Positions 5,263-15,063 of a stretch of 64,000 nt of DNA are shown one piece after another. Source of the stretch: Cupriavidus sp. WKF15. Its GTDB lineage: Bacteria; Pseudomonadota; Gammaproteobacteria; Burkholderiales; Burkholderiaceae. The notes under the pieces are model-generated. The model was not told where the DNA came from, searched no databases, and saw only the letters and a program-made list of their open reading frames with translations. The stretch's first letter is position 1. Each line of letters starts with the position of its first letter. The position numbers were made by a program, and so were the translations under genes. The stretch lies in the NCBI RefSeq assembly GCF_029278605.1, contig NZ_CP119572.1:3658001-3722000 (forward strand), in the 5' to 3' direction.

Positions 5263-5784
5263 TTACTTGCCGCCCGACTTCTTGCCCTTGGGCGCCAGCA
5301 TGGTGCCGCGGCACTCCGCACTGCCGCAGCGGCACTCGAATTCCTTCTTCAGCTTCTTCGTATAGCGGGCCTCGATTACCAGCCCGTAGTCATAGAAAAG
5401 CTCTTCGCCCGCGGCAATATCGCGCAGCGCATGGATAAATACGCGGCCCTTCTTCTCGCGCGCCTCGCAGTTCGGGGCGCAGGCATGGTTGATCCAGCGC
5501 GCGCGGTTGCCGCCGAACTTGGCGTCGATCACGCTGCCGTCGTCCAGGCTGAAATAGAACGTGTGGTTGGGATCATTCGGGTCGTGCGGGTGGCGTTCCA
5601 GGGCCTTCTTCCAGGAAATGTGCTCGCCCTTGTACTCGATCACCCGCTCGCCCTCCGCGATCGGCGCAATCGCGTAAACGCCCTTGCCATGCACGCCCGA
5701 CTGGCGCACCTCGATGCGGTCGCTCGCCGACTTGCCCGCCTTGCTTTCCTTGACGCTGTCCTTGCGCTTTGCCTTGTCCGCCAT
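5263..5784 (-). CDS. SET domain protein (lysine methyltransferase-like)
   Basis: The 173-residue protein is almost entirely one SET domain. Recognisable parts are the opening GVHGKGVYAIAPIAEGERVIEY, the pseudoknot segment RWINHACAPNCEA with the NH.C..PN core, the catalytic-side tyrosine of EELFYDYG, and a post-SET cysteine cluster (CRCGSAECRG) that can bind zinc. SET proteins transfer a methyl group from SAM to lysines. The N-terminal 25 residues are lysine-rich (MADKAKRKDSVKESKAGK). The ATG at 5784 is preferred because GGAAGG precedes it; the frame is open to 5901. It is divergent from the HU gene over a repeat-rich spacer. HU or another basic DNA-binding protein would be a plausible substrate, but that is conjecture. 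Confidence 0.88.
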   Translation of the reverse strand: MADKAKRKDSVKESKAGKSASDRIEVRQSGVHGKGVYAIAPIAEGERVIEYKGEHISWKKALERHPHDPNDPNHTFYFSLDDGSVIDAKFGGNRARWINHACAPNCEAREKKGRVFIHALRDIAAGEELFYDYGLVIEARYTKKLKKEFECRCGSAECRGTMLAPKGKKSGGK

Positions 5785-5871
5785 TTGCCTTCCCGTGCTG
5801 TTCGCTTTCCATTGCGTTGCAGGCGCGGGTCGCGCCGACGCGATCGGGATGATACCGGGGCGCCCGGGGAC

Positions 5872-6587
5872 CGTATACGCAAGCCTCATGGCTGGCGCCA
5901 CGTATACGCCGAATCACTACTGAAGGGGCAGGTCATCGATCTGGCAGGACCGTATGCGCAGCCACTGGAATGTGGATAAGGCCGCCCGTTTCTGTGGATA
6001 AGCAGCCGGATTGCGTGTGGGCCGCCTGGGGTTGGCCTGGGGACGCGACAGGAACAAGTCAGACCCTCGACACAGGCACCCCCGCACAGACCCCCGAGTC
6101 ATCCACGCCCGCCAACACTGCGTCCCTGTGGTTCTGGTTTATGTAAACCTTTGATCAGCTTGGCGTTTACCAGCTTATCCACAGAAATAACCGGTGTTTA
6201 CCTACTACCACTATTTGTATACATGAAAAGAAAGATGTAAACCCAGTGGCCACCTTCAGCCGAGGCACGAAATTGGGGGGAGTTCGCGAACGTAAACCCG
6301 GCACAGCGCGTATACGCTCCAGCAGTCCCATGCGATTGCCAGAGGCCGTATACGCGGACCGACGTATACGCCGCCCAACATCATTCACCGCGCGAATGCC
6401 GCCCAAAGAAGAATGCTTGCTATGCAACATAGTGCATGGGCTGGGTTGGAATAGTCGGTCGAAAGTGGGCTGTGGATGGCCAGCCATGCTGTAGCAGGCT
6501 CTGGAAAGCCTCCAGGAGCCCTTCAGGCGCTACGGAGGGCACTCCTCCACCCGATAGAGGTCGTAAGGCTGTAAAGGGCGTATACGC
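5872..6587 (+). repeat. six directly repeated CGTATACGC motifs
   Basis: The octamer palindrome CGTATACG occurs at 5872-5879, 5901-5908, 6309-6316, 6347-6354, 6363-6370 and 6579-6586, and each copy is followed by C, so the 9-mer CGTATACGC is repeated six times in one orientation. A variant CGTATGCGC lies at 5951-5959 and TTGTATACAT at 6215-6224. An 8-mer is expected about once per 64 kb on uniform composition. The spacing is irregular (29, 408, 38, 16 and 216 bp), which argues for protein-binding sites rather than a tandem duplication. Confidence 0.85.
5971..6183. other. three exact DnaA boxes (TTATCCACA)
   Basis: TGTGGATAA, the complement of the consensus DnaA box, occurs at 5971-5979 and 5993-6001, and TTATCCACA at 6175-6183. 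All three match the strong E. coli box at nine of nine positions. They lie within the repeat-rich spacer between the SET gene and the HU gene. Confidence 0.7.
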
Positions 6588-6633
6588 GGTCAGAGGAGTC
6601 CTGAAGGCGCTTCAGGGGCCGGAGGGCGTAAAC
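6143..6633. repeat. cluster of GTAAAC / GTTTAC motifs
   Basis: GTAAAC occurs at 6143-6148, 6237-6242, 6292-6297 and 6628-6633, and its complement GTTTAC at 6165-6170 and 6196-6201. Most extend to TGTAAACC or GGTAAACR. They are interspersed with the CGTATACGC copies and may be a related or a second binding motif. Confidence 0.6.
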
Positions 6634-6853
6634 ATCACTCCCCGTGCGCGCTTCCGGGCTCGCCGAATGGTCCGGCGGCAGCCGAATCACGGCCCGAAGC
6701 CGCTTTCCGGAAAGGTGCTCGTAACAATCTTCATCCGGTGCGCCTTGTCCGGCACGGTATCATGTGGCCCGCGACGTCTTTGCCGGTCCGGCCCAACCGT
6801 GGGCGGACCGTGTCTGGACGTCTGTGTTTTATCAACTCGATACGGAGTGAAGC

Positions 6854-7132
6854 ATGACGAAAACCGAACTGATCGACGCTATCGCGTCTGGCGTGGACGG
6901 TCTGACCAAGGCAAAGGCCGAGCAGGCACTGAACGTGACCCTGTCGGCCATCATGGACGCCGTTGCCAAGGGCGATACGCTGAGCCTGGTCGGCTTTGGC
7001 ACGTTCAGCAAGGGCGAGCGCGGCGAGCGCATGGCCCGCAACCCGCGCACCGGCGAAGAAATCAAGGTGGAAGCAGCCAAGACGGTGAAGTTCAAGGCTG
7101 GCCAGAAGTTCAAGGACGCCGTCAATCAGTAA
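6854..7132 (+). CDS. hupB: HU family DNA-binding protein
   Basis: The 92-residue product is a histone-like HU protein that binds and bends DNA as a dimer. It starts MTKTELIDAIA, carries the signature VGFGTFSKGERGERMARNPRTGEEI (the DNA-binding beta arm with the intercalating Pro, about residues 45-70), and ends with the typical KFKAGQKFKDAVN helix. Length and motifs are standard for HU rather than IHF. GGAG precedes the ATG at a suitable distance. The gene is alone, downstream of the long repeat-bearing spacer and followed by a DUF2272 gene. The choice of hupB rather than hupA as symbol is by habit in betaproteobacteria. Confidence 0.95.
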   Translation: MTKTELIDAIASGVDGLTKAKAEQALNVTLSAIMDAVAKGDTLSLVGFGTFSKGERGERMARNPRTGEEIKVEAAKTVKFKAGQKFKDAVNQ

Positions 7133-7237: not shown

Positions 7238-7246
7238 TTATCCACA
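7238..7246 (+). other. exact DnaA box downstream of the HU gene
   Basis: TTATCCACA matches the DnaA consensus exactly. It lies in the gap between the HU gene and the DUF2272 gene, about 160 bp upstream of the 12-bp CACAG array. Confidence 0.55.
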
Positions 7247-7384: not shown

Positions 7385-8359
7385 ATGCTTCCCAGTTCGG
7401 ACCAGGCCATATTTCCACAGCGTTATTCACAGCGCTCTCCACAGTGGATTCCACAGGTTTTTCCACAGGCCCGGGGTTGGGTCCTGTGCGCCGCCGTGGC
7501 CCTGGCATGCCTCGCAGGCTGCAGCACGGTGAGCGAACCGGCGCGCCCGCAGGCGGCTCCGCTCCCCGACATGGAACGTCCCGCGACCACGCCGGGCGCA
7601 ACCACGCGCGAACGCATCGTGGAAATCGCCATACAGGAATGGCGGCGCTGGGGCTCGCAGACCGTGCGCCTGGGCCGCGACGATACCGCCTGCGTGACGT
7701 TCAGTCCCCTGCCGGCGCCGCAGCCGGATGAGGAGCCGCTTTCGGCAGATGCCGGCGCGCCTGCCCAAGGCTCCGCCGACCAGGAAACGGATGCCGATGG
7801 CGCCGAGTCCGGCTGTGTCTCGTTCCCCGACGGCACCGGCATGGAAGCCACGCCACTGGGCTGCCAGATGGCGCGGCGCTATTGGGGCATCGTGGGCCAG
7901 GTGCCCCGTTGCACGCAGGTCACGCAGCCGTCCTGGGCCTGGTCGGCGGTATTCATTTCCTGGGTCCTGCGCAAGGCCGGACTCGACGAGCGCCAGTTCC
8001 TGACCGGCCAGTCACATTCCATGTATGTCGTGGATGCGCGCGACGGGATCCTGCCCCGGCCCGCCTTTCATCTCGAACCCGTTCCTGCGCTGCCACGGAC
8101 GGGCGACATCATCTGTGCGCCGCGCGGCCGCGAAAGATACCTCGAGGACATCGCCGGTATCGGCTTTGGCACGACGCCCATGCATTGCGACATCGTGGTG
8201 TCGGTGGATCCCGCCGCGCGCCTGGTGAAGGCCATTGGCGGCAACGTCCAGCAGTCTGTGTCGATGGAGGAGATCGAGTTGGGGGATTCGGGCAGGCTCG
8301 ATGGCGTCACGAACTCCCACATGCCCTGGCTGCTGATCATGCGCAACGATCTGCAGTAG
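7385..8359 (+). CDS. DUF2272 family lipoprotein
   Basis: The protein is 324 residues from the ATG at 7385 (332 from a GTG at 7361). A hydrophobic stretch ending in ACLAGC is a lipobox, giving a mature lipoprotein, so it should be anchored in the envelope. The body matches my memory of the DUF2272 family: an opening ERIVEIAIQEWRRWG, a central PSWAWSAVFISWVLRKAGL segment, and a DIICAPR...GTTPMHCDIVVSV stretch with Cys and His residues that resembles NlpC/P60-like hydrolases. Substrate is unknown. The region before the signal core is encoded by a 12-bp DnaA-box-like array, so the start is uncertain and a shorter protein beginning nearer the hydrophobic core is possible. Confidence 0.8.
   Translation: MLPSSDQAIFPQRYSQRSPQWIPQVFPQARGWVLCAAVALACLAGCSTVSEPARPQAAPLPDMERPATTPGATTRERIVEIAIQEWRRWGSQTVRLGRDDTACVTFSPLPAPQPDEEPLSADAGAPAQGSADQETDADGAESGCVSFPDGTGMEATPLGCQMARRYWGIVGQVPRCTQVTQPSWAWSAVFISWVLRKAGLDERQFLTGQSHSMYVVDARDGILPRPAFHLEPVPALPRTGDIICAPRGRERYLEDIAGIGFGTTPMHCDIVVSVDPAARLVKAIGGNVQQSVSMEEIELGDSGRLDGVTNSHMPWLLIMRNDLQ
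7409..7468 (+). repeat. 12-bp tandem array of DnaA-box-like units
   Basis: Five consecutive 12-bp units each end in CACAG: units end at 7420, 7432, 7444, 7456 and 7468, with cores TTTCCACAG, TTATTCACAG, CTCTCCACAG, GATTCCACAG and TTTTCCACAG. One core (TTATTCACA, 7423-7431) is a known DnaA-box variant; the others are degenerate. The array overlaps the predicted N-terminal coding region of the DUF2272 lipoprotein. Confidence 0.75.
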
Positions 8360-12091: not shown

Positions 12092-12149
12092 TGTCTTACC
12101 CGAAAGAGTAGGGTAGGGACGAAGTCATTACTGACCTGTCCCCCCCTAG

Positions 12150-12183
12150 GAACCGTACGTGCGAGTTTCCCCGCATACGGCTC
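12150..12183 (-). ncRNA. group II intron domain V
   Basis: The 34-nt hairpin starting GAGCCGTATGCGGG and ending CGTACGGTTC has the usual two stems, GAAA loop and bulge of the catalytic domain V. The family's AGC/CGC-type triad appears here as GAGCCG. A domain VI stem (TAGGG...CCCTA) follows on its 3' side. Confidence 0.85.
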
Positions 12184-12188
12184 GGGCC

Positions 12189-13901
12189 TCAACTAAATGT
12201 CACTTCGGACACCGGTTTCACAACAGTTCTGCCATGGTGGTGCACTTGCATGTGACAGTTCGGATGCAGCAGCACGCGATTCCCTAGAGCATCGGAGCCC
12301 CCGCGTATGCGAGGTTCGATGTGATGATCTTCCCATCCTGTTTCCTTGGTTATCTTGCACTGACACACCGCGCACAAGCCTTGCTGGGATAGATACAGTT
12401 TGATCCACTGCTTACGGTGCGCCATGTTTTCCAACATTCGCTCCTGTCGCAGCTTTTCGCCGTACCGTTCCTGCGTAGGATCGAAGGGATTGTAATCCCC
12501 CCGAATCTTCTTGTGCCGCCGGATAGTCGTACCCGCAAGCGAGTACAGTTCTGTCCAGCCTACACTGCCGTTGCCGCTCACGAACTTGGTTCCGAACACC
12601 CAGTTTCGTTCGCCGACGGTTGCGAAATACTTCCTCCGCACCCATTCGGCCGACTTATGTGGATGTCGCCGCTTTGCCCACCGCCGTAAAGCAATAAATA
12701 CTTCATGCTCCATGCGGGCGAACGCCGATTTAGCAACCACGGGACTGTGATACTGTGCCCAGCCCCGCAGCATCGGGTTTAACAGTCGAATTAGAACCGA
12801 CTGCTCCACCGTCTTGTTGGTGCTGATGACCGCCTTCACCTTGCGATAGAACGCTTGCGCGTTTTTCTTGCTTGGCTTGATGAGCAGTGTTCCCGAGTAC
12901 TTACGGAAATTCCACCCTAGGAAGTCAAAGCCGTCCGCGATGCTGACGATCCGCGTTTTCTCCGTCGATAGCGATAGCCCCCGTACAGCGAGGAACTGTT
13001 CTACCCACGGCTTCACTTCGCTTTCTAGGACCTCCGGCGTATCACCGGTGATCACGAAGTCGTCCGCGTAACGCACAACATTCACTTTGAGCCTTTTCGC
13101 CTTGGTCACTCCCAACTTCGTTCCGAGGAACTGGGTCAGTTGCGTTTCCAAGCCGTTCAGCGCCACATTTGCCAGAGTCGGGGAAATGATGCCTCCCTGC
13201 GGCGTTCCGGCTTCGGTTGCCTGAAACTGGCCTTGAAATACCACGCCAGCCTTCAACCACTTCCGAAGGATTGCTTTGTCCATTGGGACATTGCGCTCCA
13301 GCCAGTCGTGACTGATATGGTCGAAGCATCCTTTGATGTCTGCTTCCAGCACCCATTGAGCCGAGGCCTTCTGGGATAAGGAAACAAACAGCTGGGACAT
13401 GGCATCCGCCGTGGATCGGTTGATCCTGAATCCATAAGAGTTCGGATCGCTCGTTCCTTCGGACACCGGTTCCAACGCCAGCAGATACAACGCTTGCATG
13501 GCTCGGTCCAACATGGTTGGAATGCCCAGAGGGCGCTCCTTCCCATTGGCCTTGGGGATGAAGACCCTCCGTAATGGCAGAGGTCTGTACCCCCGGCGCT
13601 TCAACCGCCCAATGGCTTCCCACCGGACTTCAGGCGTTTTCCACTTTTCGCGATCGACGCCTGCCGTTCGCTCACCTTGGTTCATCGTCACTCGTCGTAC
13701 CGCCAGTGCTTTGGCGGAGAACGAGCGGGTCAGAGACCGTTGCAGGGCTTTCACCCTACGCCAGTCCCCTTCCTGTGTCGCCTTCGCAATTCGAATCTGC
13801 ATATCTCGAACGTTCCGCTCCACGCGGCGCCAATTAATGGCGCCCCAGGTTTGCGGCACGCCGGAGAGCGCAGATTCATCCTTGCGGATCAATGCTTCCA
13901 T
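12189..13901 (-). CDS. ltrA: group II intron reverse transcriptase/maturase with HNH endonuclease
   Basis: The 570-residue protein helps splicing and carries out retrohoming of its intron. A reverse transcriptase domain (about 70-330) includes [40 protein letters not shown] and the catalytic VRYADDFVI. The maturase X domain (about 370-450) has LRGWAQYH. The C-terminal HNH zinc nuclease is seen as CAVCQCK...DHHIEPR...[12 protein letters not shown] (about 505-560). All domains appear intact, so the element may still move. AGGAGAG precedes the ATG at 13901. Confidence 0.96.
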
Positions 13902-14263
13902 GCTGCTCTCCTATCTTGAGGATCTTCCCCAACATCAAGAGACAGCACGCCCCTTGAGGGACGTGTTGCCCCTCAAGGGAAGAAAATTTAAACAAGCGAG
14001 ATCAGTCAGCCGTCCTGCGACGATTGACCAGTTGGAAGTCTGCCCGCTTTCGCGTGGGATGATGTCTCAATCCCTATCCAGACCATTACAGCCCGGCGTT
14101 CGCTTTTTCCAACCTCCCATACCCGCACAGCCAACAGCGTTCCTTGCGGTTCGCCTGCCTGAGCCAAACTGCGCTCCGGCAGCCATACGGGCTTACCACG
14201 TTCCCTGCGCATTACACGACTGGGTTAGGGTCTGCCTTTCCGCCGGTGGTCATCGTGGCGACG

Positions 14264-14286
14264 TGTCCCAAGGCTTGAGTGGGACA
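14264..14286 (-). ncRNA. candidate EBS1 hairpin of the intron
   Basis: TGTCCCA and TGGGACA form a 7-bp stem whose loop, read on the intron strand, is CTCAAGCCT. The CAAGCC in the loop is complementary to the GGCTTG at the end of the 5' exon. This is the expected geometry for exon recognition. Confidence 0.7.
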
Positions 14287-15063
14287 ACCGACCACACACC
14301 GTTTGGTTAATGCCTAACAGCAGCTTTGGCATCTCAATCGTTACGACGTTTATCAGCAGTTCACTTACGTTACCCATACCAGTCAGCCTAGCGCCTCGAC
14401 CCCGTTGCTGCTCGGAGCCTCCACCATCCTGTCTCACGACCTGATGGCACCCTTTCGGGGGCCGCATTGTCAGGAGAGCTTCACACCCCACCGTTACCAG
14501 TGACGCATGTCCCCCTAGGCTACTGCTAGTCGCATAGCAGGTTCTCTATCGTCACGCCCTTTCGGACATTTCCGACCGAACCATAATGCACAGAGCTACC
14601 GCTCCGGGACCTCACCTACTTACAGTCGTGCTCCCTTACCAGCGAGCGCTTGACGGCATCGAACGCTCTTGCGAGCCTCGATGTCGTCCCAAAGAACGTA
14701 GCGCCGTTCCATCCAGAACGGTTTGAATGCTATGTTGCGGCGATACAACGGAAACTCCGCTGTCTAACCGCAGACACCCTCCGGGGAGAGTGCGTACAGA
14801 GAACTCGCCCAAAGGCGAGCGTCCCCGCCCTTGGGCAATGGCTGGAAATCCATCCAGCAAAAGCAAGCTGTAAGGCGCCGATACTCTGGCTTCCTCACAA
14901 CACATCGGACTCCCCCTAGCTGTTCGGCCGGGTTCGTCTAAGCAAGTAATTGGTCGAGATTGGACGGTTCAGGCCGAGGCCCTTCCCTTGTCTCGACAAA
15001 GGTCGATGCTCCTTACGTTGGAGCTACCCGGACACGAGAATGCGTGTCGCACCAAGCCCACCG

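Follow-up and report, generated by a model that had tools for sequence, protein, structure and literature searches.

The chromosomal origin of Escherichia coli, oriC, is densely occupied by sites of an orphan adenine methyltransferase (the Dam/SeqA system) and is not adjacent to dnaA. Elements of a comparable arrangement have been described separately in Cupriavidus and its relatives. For C. metallidurans CH34, a putative origin of chromosome 1 was placed where the skew changes over, about 90 kb from dnaA, with three perfect DnaA boxes in the 213 nt before this transition (Janssen et al., 2010; PMC2864759). In Ralstonia solanacearum, the intergenic region between the SET-domain and HU genes carries methylated GTWWAC sites that overlap predicted -35 elements and were read as promoter control (Erill et al., 2017; PMC5390034). 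In both R. solanacearum and Burkholderia cenocepacia, this motif is the target of an orphan adenine methyltransferase of Burkholderiaceae (PMC5390034, PMC7364216, PMC11460718); in C. necator H16, 95.3% of GTWWAC sites were detected as methylated (PMC6742796), and no partner nuclease is predicted for the enzyme (PMC12645576). The replicon origins of B. cenocepacia contain DnaA boxes with CACAG and at least two GTWWAC sites between two DnaA boxes; both methyltransferase mutants showed a larger nucleoid relative to cell size at an unchanged exponential growth rate, and the authors raised the possibility that methylation coordinates replication (PMC7364216, 2020). Judging from the accessible text of these papers, the skew and the three DnaA boxes (2010), the methylated SET/HU sites (2017) and the methylated Burkholderia origins (2020) are thus already published, and a search of the open-licence literature, as far as its text was accessible, returned no report uniting them.

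The window analysed here is a 64-kb stretch (G000:C1:3658001-3722000) of the 7.38-Mb genome, in three contigs, of a Cupriavidus soil bacterium (G000), and plain coordinates refer to this window. An intergenic region (5785-6853) separates a SET-domain gene on the minus strand (5263-5784), whose closest named relatives are from Cupriavidus (e.g., C. laharis, 96% identity), from hup on the plus strand (6854-7132), which encodes HU; matches to PF00856 and PF00216, respectively, bear out the identities given to both neighbours in a first-pass annotation of this DNA. The most plausible reading of the SET-hup interval is that it is oriC of chromosome 1. Together with the proposal that GTWWAC methylation marks a used origin and modulates re-initiation, we give this reading a probability of about 75%. 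It draws on the anatomy of the locus, its conservation, a skew step near it and the co-occurrence of sites and enzyme. The first-pass annotation had offered replication, segregation, nucleoid organisation or a heavily regulated divergent promoter, and replication now appears to have been the right choice. Partial or fuller matches to the interval occur in all 36 genus members, the present genome included. Genus matches and column conservation define two blocks on the plus strand: block 1 (5970-6243) holds three DnaA boxes, an unwinding element, four GTAAAC/GTTTAC sites and one GTATAC, and was found by eye, in full or in part, in 35 of the 36 members (the exception being a 54%-complete assembly), whereas block 2 (6688-6853), the upstream and leader region of hup, is free of GTWWAC.

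The repeats had been described as two sets of presumed protein-binding motifs, and their positions are accurate: the octamer CGTATACG occurs exactly at 5872, 5901, 6309, 6347, 6363 and 6579, each copy followed by a C that extends it to a 9-mer, and the six GTAAAC/GTTTAC sites are present at 6143, 6165, 6196, 6237, 6292 and 6628. Their separation into distinct motifs does not hold, in that CGTATACGC and GTAAAC/GTTTAC form a single motif family, the methylation motif GTWWAC. The 9-mer, found in 19 places in the 7.38-Mb genome with six at this locus (palindromic double rows counted once), is itself unremarkable; what is dense and conserved is GTWWAC. The window contains 19 such sites, and 13 of them fall within 761 bp (5873-6633). 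All were located by motif scan and are given on the plus strand: GTATAC at 5873-5878, 5902-5907, 6217-6222, 6310-6315, 6348-6353, 6364-6369 and 6580-6585; GTAAAC at 6143-6148, 6237-6242, 6292-6297 and 6628-6633; and GTTTAC at 6165-6170 and 6196-6201. Column conservation additionally marks the sites at 6143, 6165 and 6237, and the GTATAC at 6217 is an addition to the earlier list. The background density is 0.126 sites per kb over an 800-kb stretch of this genome, locus included, in which this is the densest cluster; statements on density rest on stretches of 800 kb, 740 kb and, in two cases, 340 kb. Near the unwinding core, up to about 600 bp from it, 14 sites were seen against 0.69 expected under a Markov model of the same sequence, the fourteenth lying at 5674, inside the SET gene.

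An array bound by a transcription factor or nucleoid protein that recognises CGTATACG independently of methylation would account for six copies in 720 bp and no other in the window (0.23 expected from shuffles). Across 29 of the 30 genus loci (L040, mis-parsed, left out), however, the octamer varies from one to seven copies while GTWWAC numbers 10-19, and from genus to genus the same slots are filled by GTAAAC, GTTTAC, GTATAC or GTTAAC, which makes such an array highly improbable. CGTATACGC was likewise rejected as a motif of its own, since its CG flanks vary among genus loci. The reported palindrome CCTGAAG-GCG-CTTCAGG is present at 6600-6616, in a stretch that is not conserved in the genus alignment. 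A centromere was also considered and set aside, as the window gave no match, at up to two mismatches, to the 14-base core of a parS consensus.

The origin reading gains its anatomical detail from the DnaA boxes and the adjoining element. Exact matches to TTATCCACA lie at 5971-5979 and 5993-6001 on the minus strand and at 6175-6183 on the plus strand, as had been noted; spacings of 22 and 203-204 bp between three exact boxes recur in 18 of 30 genus loci, and six more retain two boxes 203-204 bp apart. The box at 6175 adjoins the unwinding element: 18 nt past it begins CTACTACCACTA (6202-6213, plus strand), a run of DnaA-trio-like repeats (3'-GAT on the other strand), followed by TTTGTATACATG, within which the GTATAC just beyond the trios (6217) is invariant in a 30-row genus alignment. 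The GTWWAC at 6196 sits at the junction of spacer and trios; it is absent in L026, L028, L029, L032, L050 and the Ralstonia-type loci, in which other sites of the element stay. By nearest-neighbour energy, the interval 6141-6240 ranks first in instability among 6390 intervals of 100 bp across the window and is proposed as the duplex-unwinding region. The locus thus combines an easily melted AT-rich region with a cluster of conserved DnaA boxes. Further boxes follow hup: one match to TTATCCACA at 7238-7246 (plus strand), with a counterpart 90 to 105 bp past hup in all 23 Cupriavidus-type loci with HU, and five DnaA-like boxes in exact 12-bp phase at 7411-7467 (plus strand; CACAG at 7416, 7428, 7440, 7452 and 7464). 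At least three such phased boxes (three to five) are present 3' of hup in 22/23 Cupriavidus-type and 0/8 Ralstonia-type loci. Since DnaA boxes lie on this side as well, hup is situated inside the DnaA-box region.

The element resembles the basal unwinding system (BUS) of bacterial origins, with which it shares a DnaA box, then DnaA-trio-like repeats and AT-rich DNA, yet it does not fit the pattern as given in the available text of that work (a spacer of at most 16 nt and at least three consecutive trios; PMC8287927): the spacer here is 18 nt, and the run CTA CTA CCA CTA is broken by CCA. Many relatives have unbroken trios and spacers of about 16-21 nt. A core of the same kind, that is, a DnaA box plus the CTACTACNACTA element, is found between dnaA and dnaN in other genera; it has this position in G052, and in g26, a genus of small genomes that lack the methyltransferase, a variant is flanked by ORFs read as dnaA and dnaN (L285). 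An order-wide core pattern matched 12 of 300 genomes, G052 among them (5 of 300 for the backwards control), and a looser family-wide pattern 71 of 150 (24 of 150 backwards). Because the backwards controls match too, single weak matches (G351, G300 and G221) were not trusted alone.

The first-pass annotation had observed that no initiator gene is present. This is no objection to an origin, because dnaA is about 81 kb away: its match starts at base 10 of this contig, which is circular and 3,745,512 bp long. By eye, the distance between locus and dnaA is 67-138 kb in the 26 genus members that have both on one contig or closed circle. Searched with a DnaA box of at most one mismatch plus trios, 800 kb of this genome and 740 kb of G030 each contained two cores, and none of them was at dnaA. 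The GC skew switches near the locus, sharply in G030, where the best single step lies at +1.4 to +4.4 kb (bootstrap -2.6 to +5.4 kb, narrowest window), and broadly, within 15 kb, in G000 (+12 to +15 kb) and G013 (+10 kb), whose bootstrap ranges extend over tens of kb in the wider windows (100 and 130 kb). In G034, the step is at +9 kb within 60 kb either side, the narrowest window, and at +87 kb, near dnaA, with 100- or 130-kb windows. Once the skew was corrected for gene strand, all four genomes had a negative value in the 30-kb bin to the left of the locus; the values turned positive at 0-30 kb in G030 but only at 30-60 kb in G000, G013 and G034, and we hold the probability of the origin reading at the level given above because of this late turn in three of four genomes. 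One Ralstonia-type genome, with sparse skew data, gave a mean of -0.024 on the left (error 0.008) and +0.004 on the right (error 0.011). A group II intron (12108-14541; two Rfam matches), with an ORF read as a maturase, lies about 5.5 kb from the array and distorts the local measurement of GC skew.

These data also bear on the idea that the locus is an element for DnaA titration or reactivation, like datA or DARS, and that the true origin is at dnaA. The many DnaA boxes, including the 12-bp phased array, would suit such an element, as would the single DnaA box that four genomes each have upstream of dnaA, the wider-window step of G034 and a corrected skew that wavers about zero from the locus to about +100 kb, and thus to dnaA, in G000, G013 and G034. 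The skew step is nearest the locus in G030, G000 and G013, however, and it is here that the window has its unwinding core and its lowest duplex stability, with no core found at dnaA. We therefore consider this alternative improbable, and an origin at dnaA was rejected on the same two grounds, the missing core and the placement of the step. The oriC reading for the SET-hup interval agrees with the account of CH34, which describes the same kind of place and the same length, 213 nt, as window positions 5971-6183; that account covers one strain and, in its accessible part, mentions neither an unwinding element nor a methylation motif (PMC2864759). If the reading is true, chromosome 1 of Cupriavidus, a genus of biotechnology hosts, has its origin some 70-140 kb from dnaA, and several of the assemblies compared here start at dnaA, away from the proposed origin.

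Comparison across genera shows which feature of the locus the sites accompany. In close relatives, the cluster stays beside hup, a check that the first-pass annotation had proposed. The named Cupriavidus loci have the core in 22 of 23 cases, with a mean of 14.5 GTWWAC (the exception, L320 of C. pampae, has a long ORF read as an autotransporter beside SET), and all seven Ralstonia loci have it with two or three GTWWAC each. Outside these two genera, SET loci are accompanied by neither HU nor the core and by at most one GTWWAC, both in Paraburkholderia/Burkholderia (21 loci) and in the Rubrivivax-Roseateles group with other or unnamed records (23 loci with upstream DNA); these make up the 44 counted, a 45th (L343) having only 26 bp upstream. 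The nucleoid link that had been drawn from the SET and HU neighbours is not borne out by these 44 loci, and a SET-centred nucleoid locus was rejected on the same count. In genus g27, conversely, GTWWAC sites occur at cores that adjoin other genes. The array thus tracks the unwinding core and neither SET nor HU. In several g27 genomes (L138/L169 and other loci), two divergent unwinding cores lie about 3 kb apart.

The published interpretation of the orthologous R. solanacearum region has to be weighed at this point. There, three conserved GTWWAC sites were interpreted as promoter control, and the available text does not name the region an origin (PMC5390034). Carried over to the present locus, this would make the interval a divergent SET/HU promoter whose expression is set by GTWWAC methylation (as in Erill et al., 2017). 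Besides the published overlap with predicted -35 elements, one site here speaks for it: the GTATAC at 5873, all of whose columns reach at least 90% conservation among the rows, precedes a TATCAT on the SET strand by 18 nt and, in our own reading, occupies the -35 position of a SET promoter. The other 12 of the 13 sites lie elsewhere, the conserved hup-proximal block has none, and a promoter scan returned no sigma-70-like site. Moreover, in the 44 loci of other genera the SET gene does without core and array, and in g27 the sites keep to the unwinding core beside other genes. Because the array follows the core and not SET/HU, the promoter interpretation is unlikely for the array, except perhaps for the GTATAC at 5873.

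The remaining evidence for the oriC reading comes from the methyltransferase. The genome has a single PF01555 match, and this enzyme aligns with PDB 8urk (E 1.7e-124, residues 17-273), which we take to be M.BceJIV; nothing was found under that name in the open-licence literature. The genome thus encodes an orthologous PF01555 enzyme of the M.BceJIV-like GTWWAC methyltransferase family. The gene of this orphan methyltransferase (G000:C1:1007224-1008147; L078) lies between ORFs read as trpB and trpA. The enzyme is present in 13 of 300 order genomes and 111 of 150 sampled family genomes; given how common it is in the family, its sites in the origin element suggest a testable role in replication timing.

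Presence of the enzyme and presence of the sites go together. A GTWWAC was found at most 72 bp from the start of the DnaA box in all 54 cores from genomes with the enzyme (15 genera; two or more sites in 48) and in none of 18 from genomes without it (8 genera), an association with a Fisher p of about 2e-6 by genus, phylogeny ignored. We settled on 72 bp following a trial with 90 bp, a choice that favours the co-occurrence reading: at 90 bp, 8 of 17 enzyme-lacking cores had one site, all of them in g26 and read as lying in the first codons of dnaN. Ten of the 18 enzyme-lacking cores come from this one genus, and the tally includes G351, G300 and G221, whose weak cores may not be origins (without them, 0/15). 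Of the family-wide core matches, the 30 with loci and a further 20 entered the tally; left out were L040, further copies in G042, G216 and G277 (L150-L154), L280 as a duplicate of G448, and L288, L290 and L292-L298, in which the core was not recognisable. As the family pattern contains the junction GT, a slight bias towards GTTAAC at this place is possible. Per 90 bp, 53 enzyme-bearing cores average 2.53 GTWWAC, compared with 0.04 and 0.09 for control palindromes of similar composition. Genus g28 offers a comparison within one genus: G232, without the enzyme, has no GTWWAC within 400 bp of its core, and the six other tallied members average 3.2.

These observations suggest that the copying of the chromosome is timed, through one DNA-methylating enzyme, by a system that evolved separately. 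In the mechanism that we propose, DnaA would bind the boxes at 5971, 5993 and 6175, with help from those 3' of hup, and would spread from the box at 6175 onto the CTACTACCACTA strand, melting about 6185-6245. GTWWAC in and around the element would be methylated by the orphan enzyme whose gene lies between trpB and trpA; passage of the fork would leave these sites hemimethylated, which would mark a freshly used origin and delay or modulate its re-initiation, in a proposed parallel to GATC in E. coli. We infer that this fragment fires; an effect of methylation on initiation and a protein that reads the hemimethylated state are predictions. Shared with the Dam/SeqA system is a dense set of orphan adenine methyltransferase sites in an origin away from dnaA, which is what this locus shows, whereas the motif is another one, the enzyme belongs to another family (PF01555) and a site cluster at the dnaA promoter is not conserved, 1 kb upstream of dnaA containing 7, 0, 2 and 1 GTWWAC in four genomes. 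An E. coli-like pairing of clusters at the origin and the dnaA promoter seemed to fit the present genome and was dropped after failing in the three others. The seven sites of this genome lie in about 0.6 kb upstream of dnaA, 0.8-1.4 kb before the start of contig G000:C1. With the B. cenocepacia origins, the locus shares DnaA boxes with CACAG, GTWWAC between boxes and the idea of a link between methylation and replication; the unwinding element and the comparison of enzyme and sites across genera are not part of that account in its available text (PMC7364216).

A second origin-like unit lies 145 kb to the left of the locus (G000:C1:3518305-3518679; L058:12793-13167), between ORFs read as a 3-methyladenine glycosylase and a cation-efflux protein. 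Eight GTWWAC surround its core, which consists of TTATCCACG plus GTTTACCTACTACTACTATT; its DnaA box has one mismatch, and its trios are unbroken. By eye, some match to this unit was seen in 39 of 40 genus genomes and its core part outside SET-hup in 37 of 40. The two units share a contig or circle in 19 genomes, where they lie 134-152 kb (15 genomes) or 172-220 kb (4 genomes) apart, likewise by eye. The skew between the two units is flattened in G000 and G030, which fits a part-time second origin and could also be produced by gene content. We regard a fuller version of the proposal as doubtful: GTWWAC methylation would have evolved separately as a methyl-timed control of initiation that reaches into the strand-opening element, with a putative protein as its reader, and the second unit about 145 kb away would also fire. 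In seven Ralstonia-type genomes, a second core lies 23-34 kb away. Among the Ralstonia-type loci L190-L195 and L197-L198, both cores have equal DnaA-box spacing, and the second one stands beside ORFs read as ArsR-like and arsenate-reductase-like.
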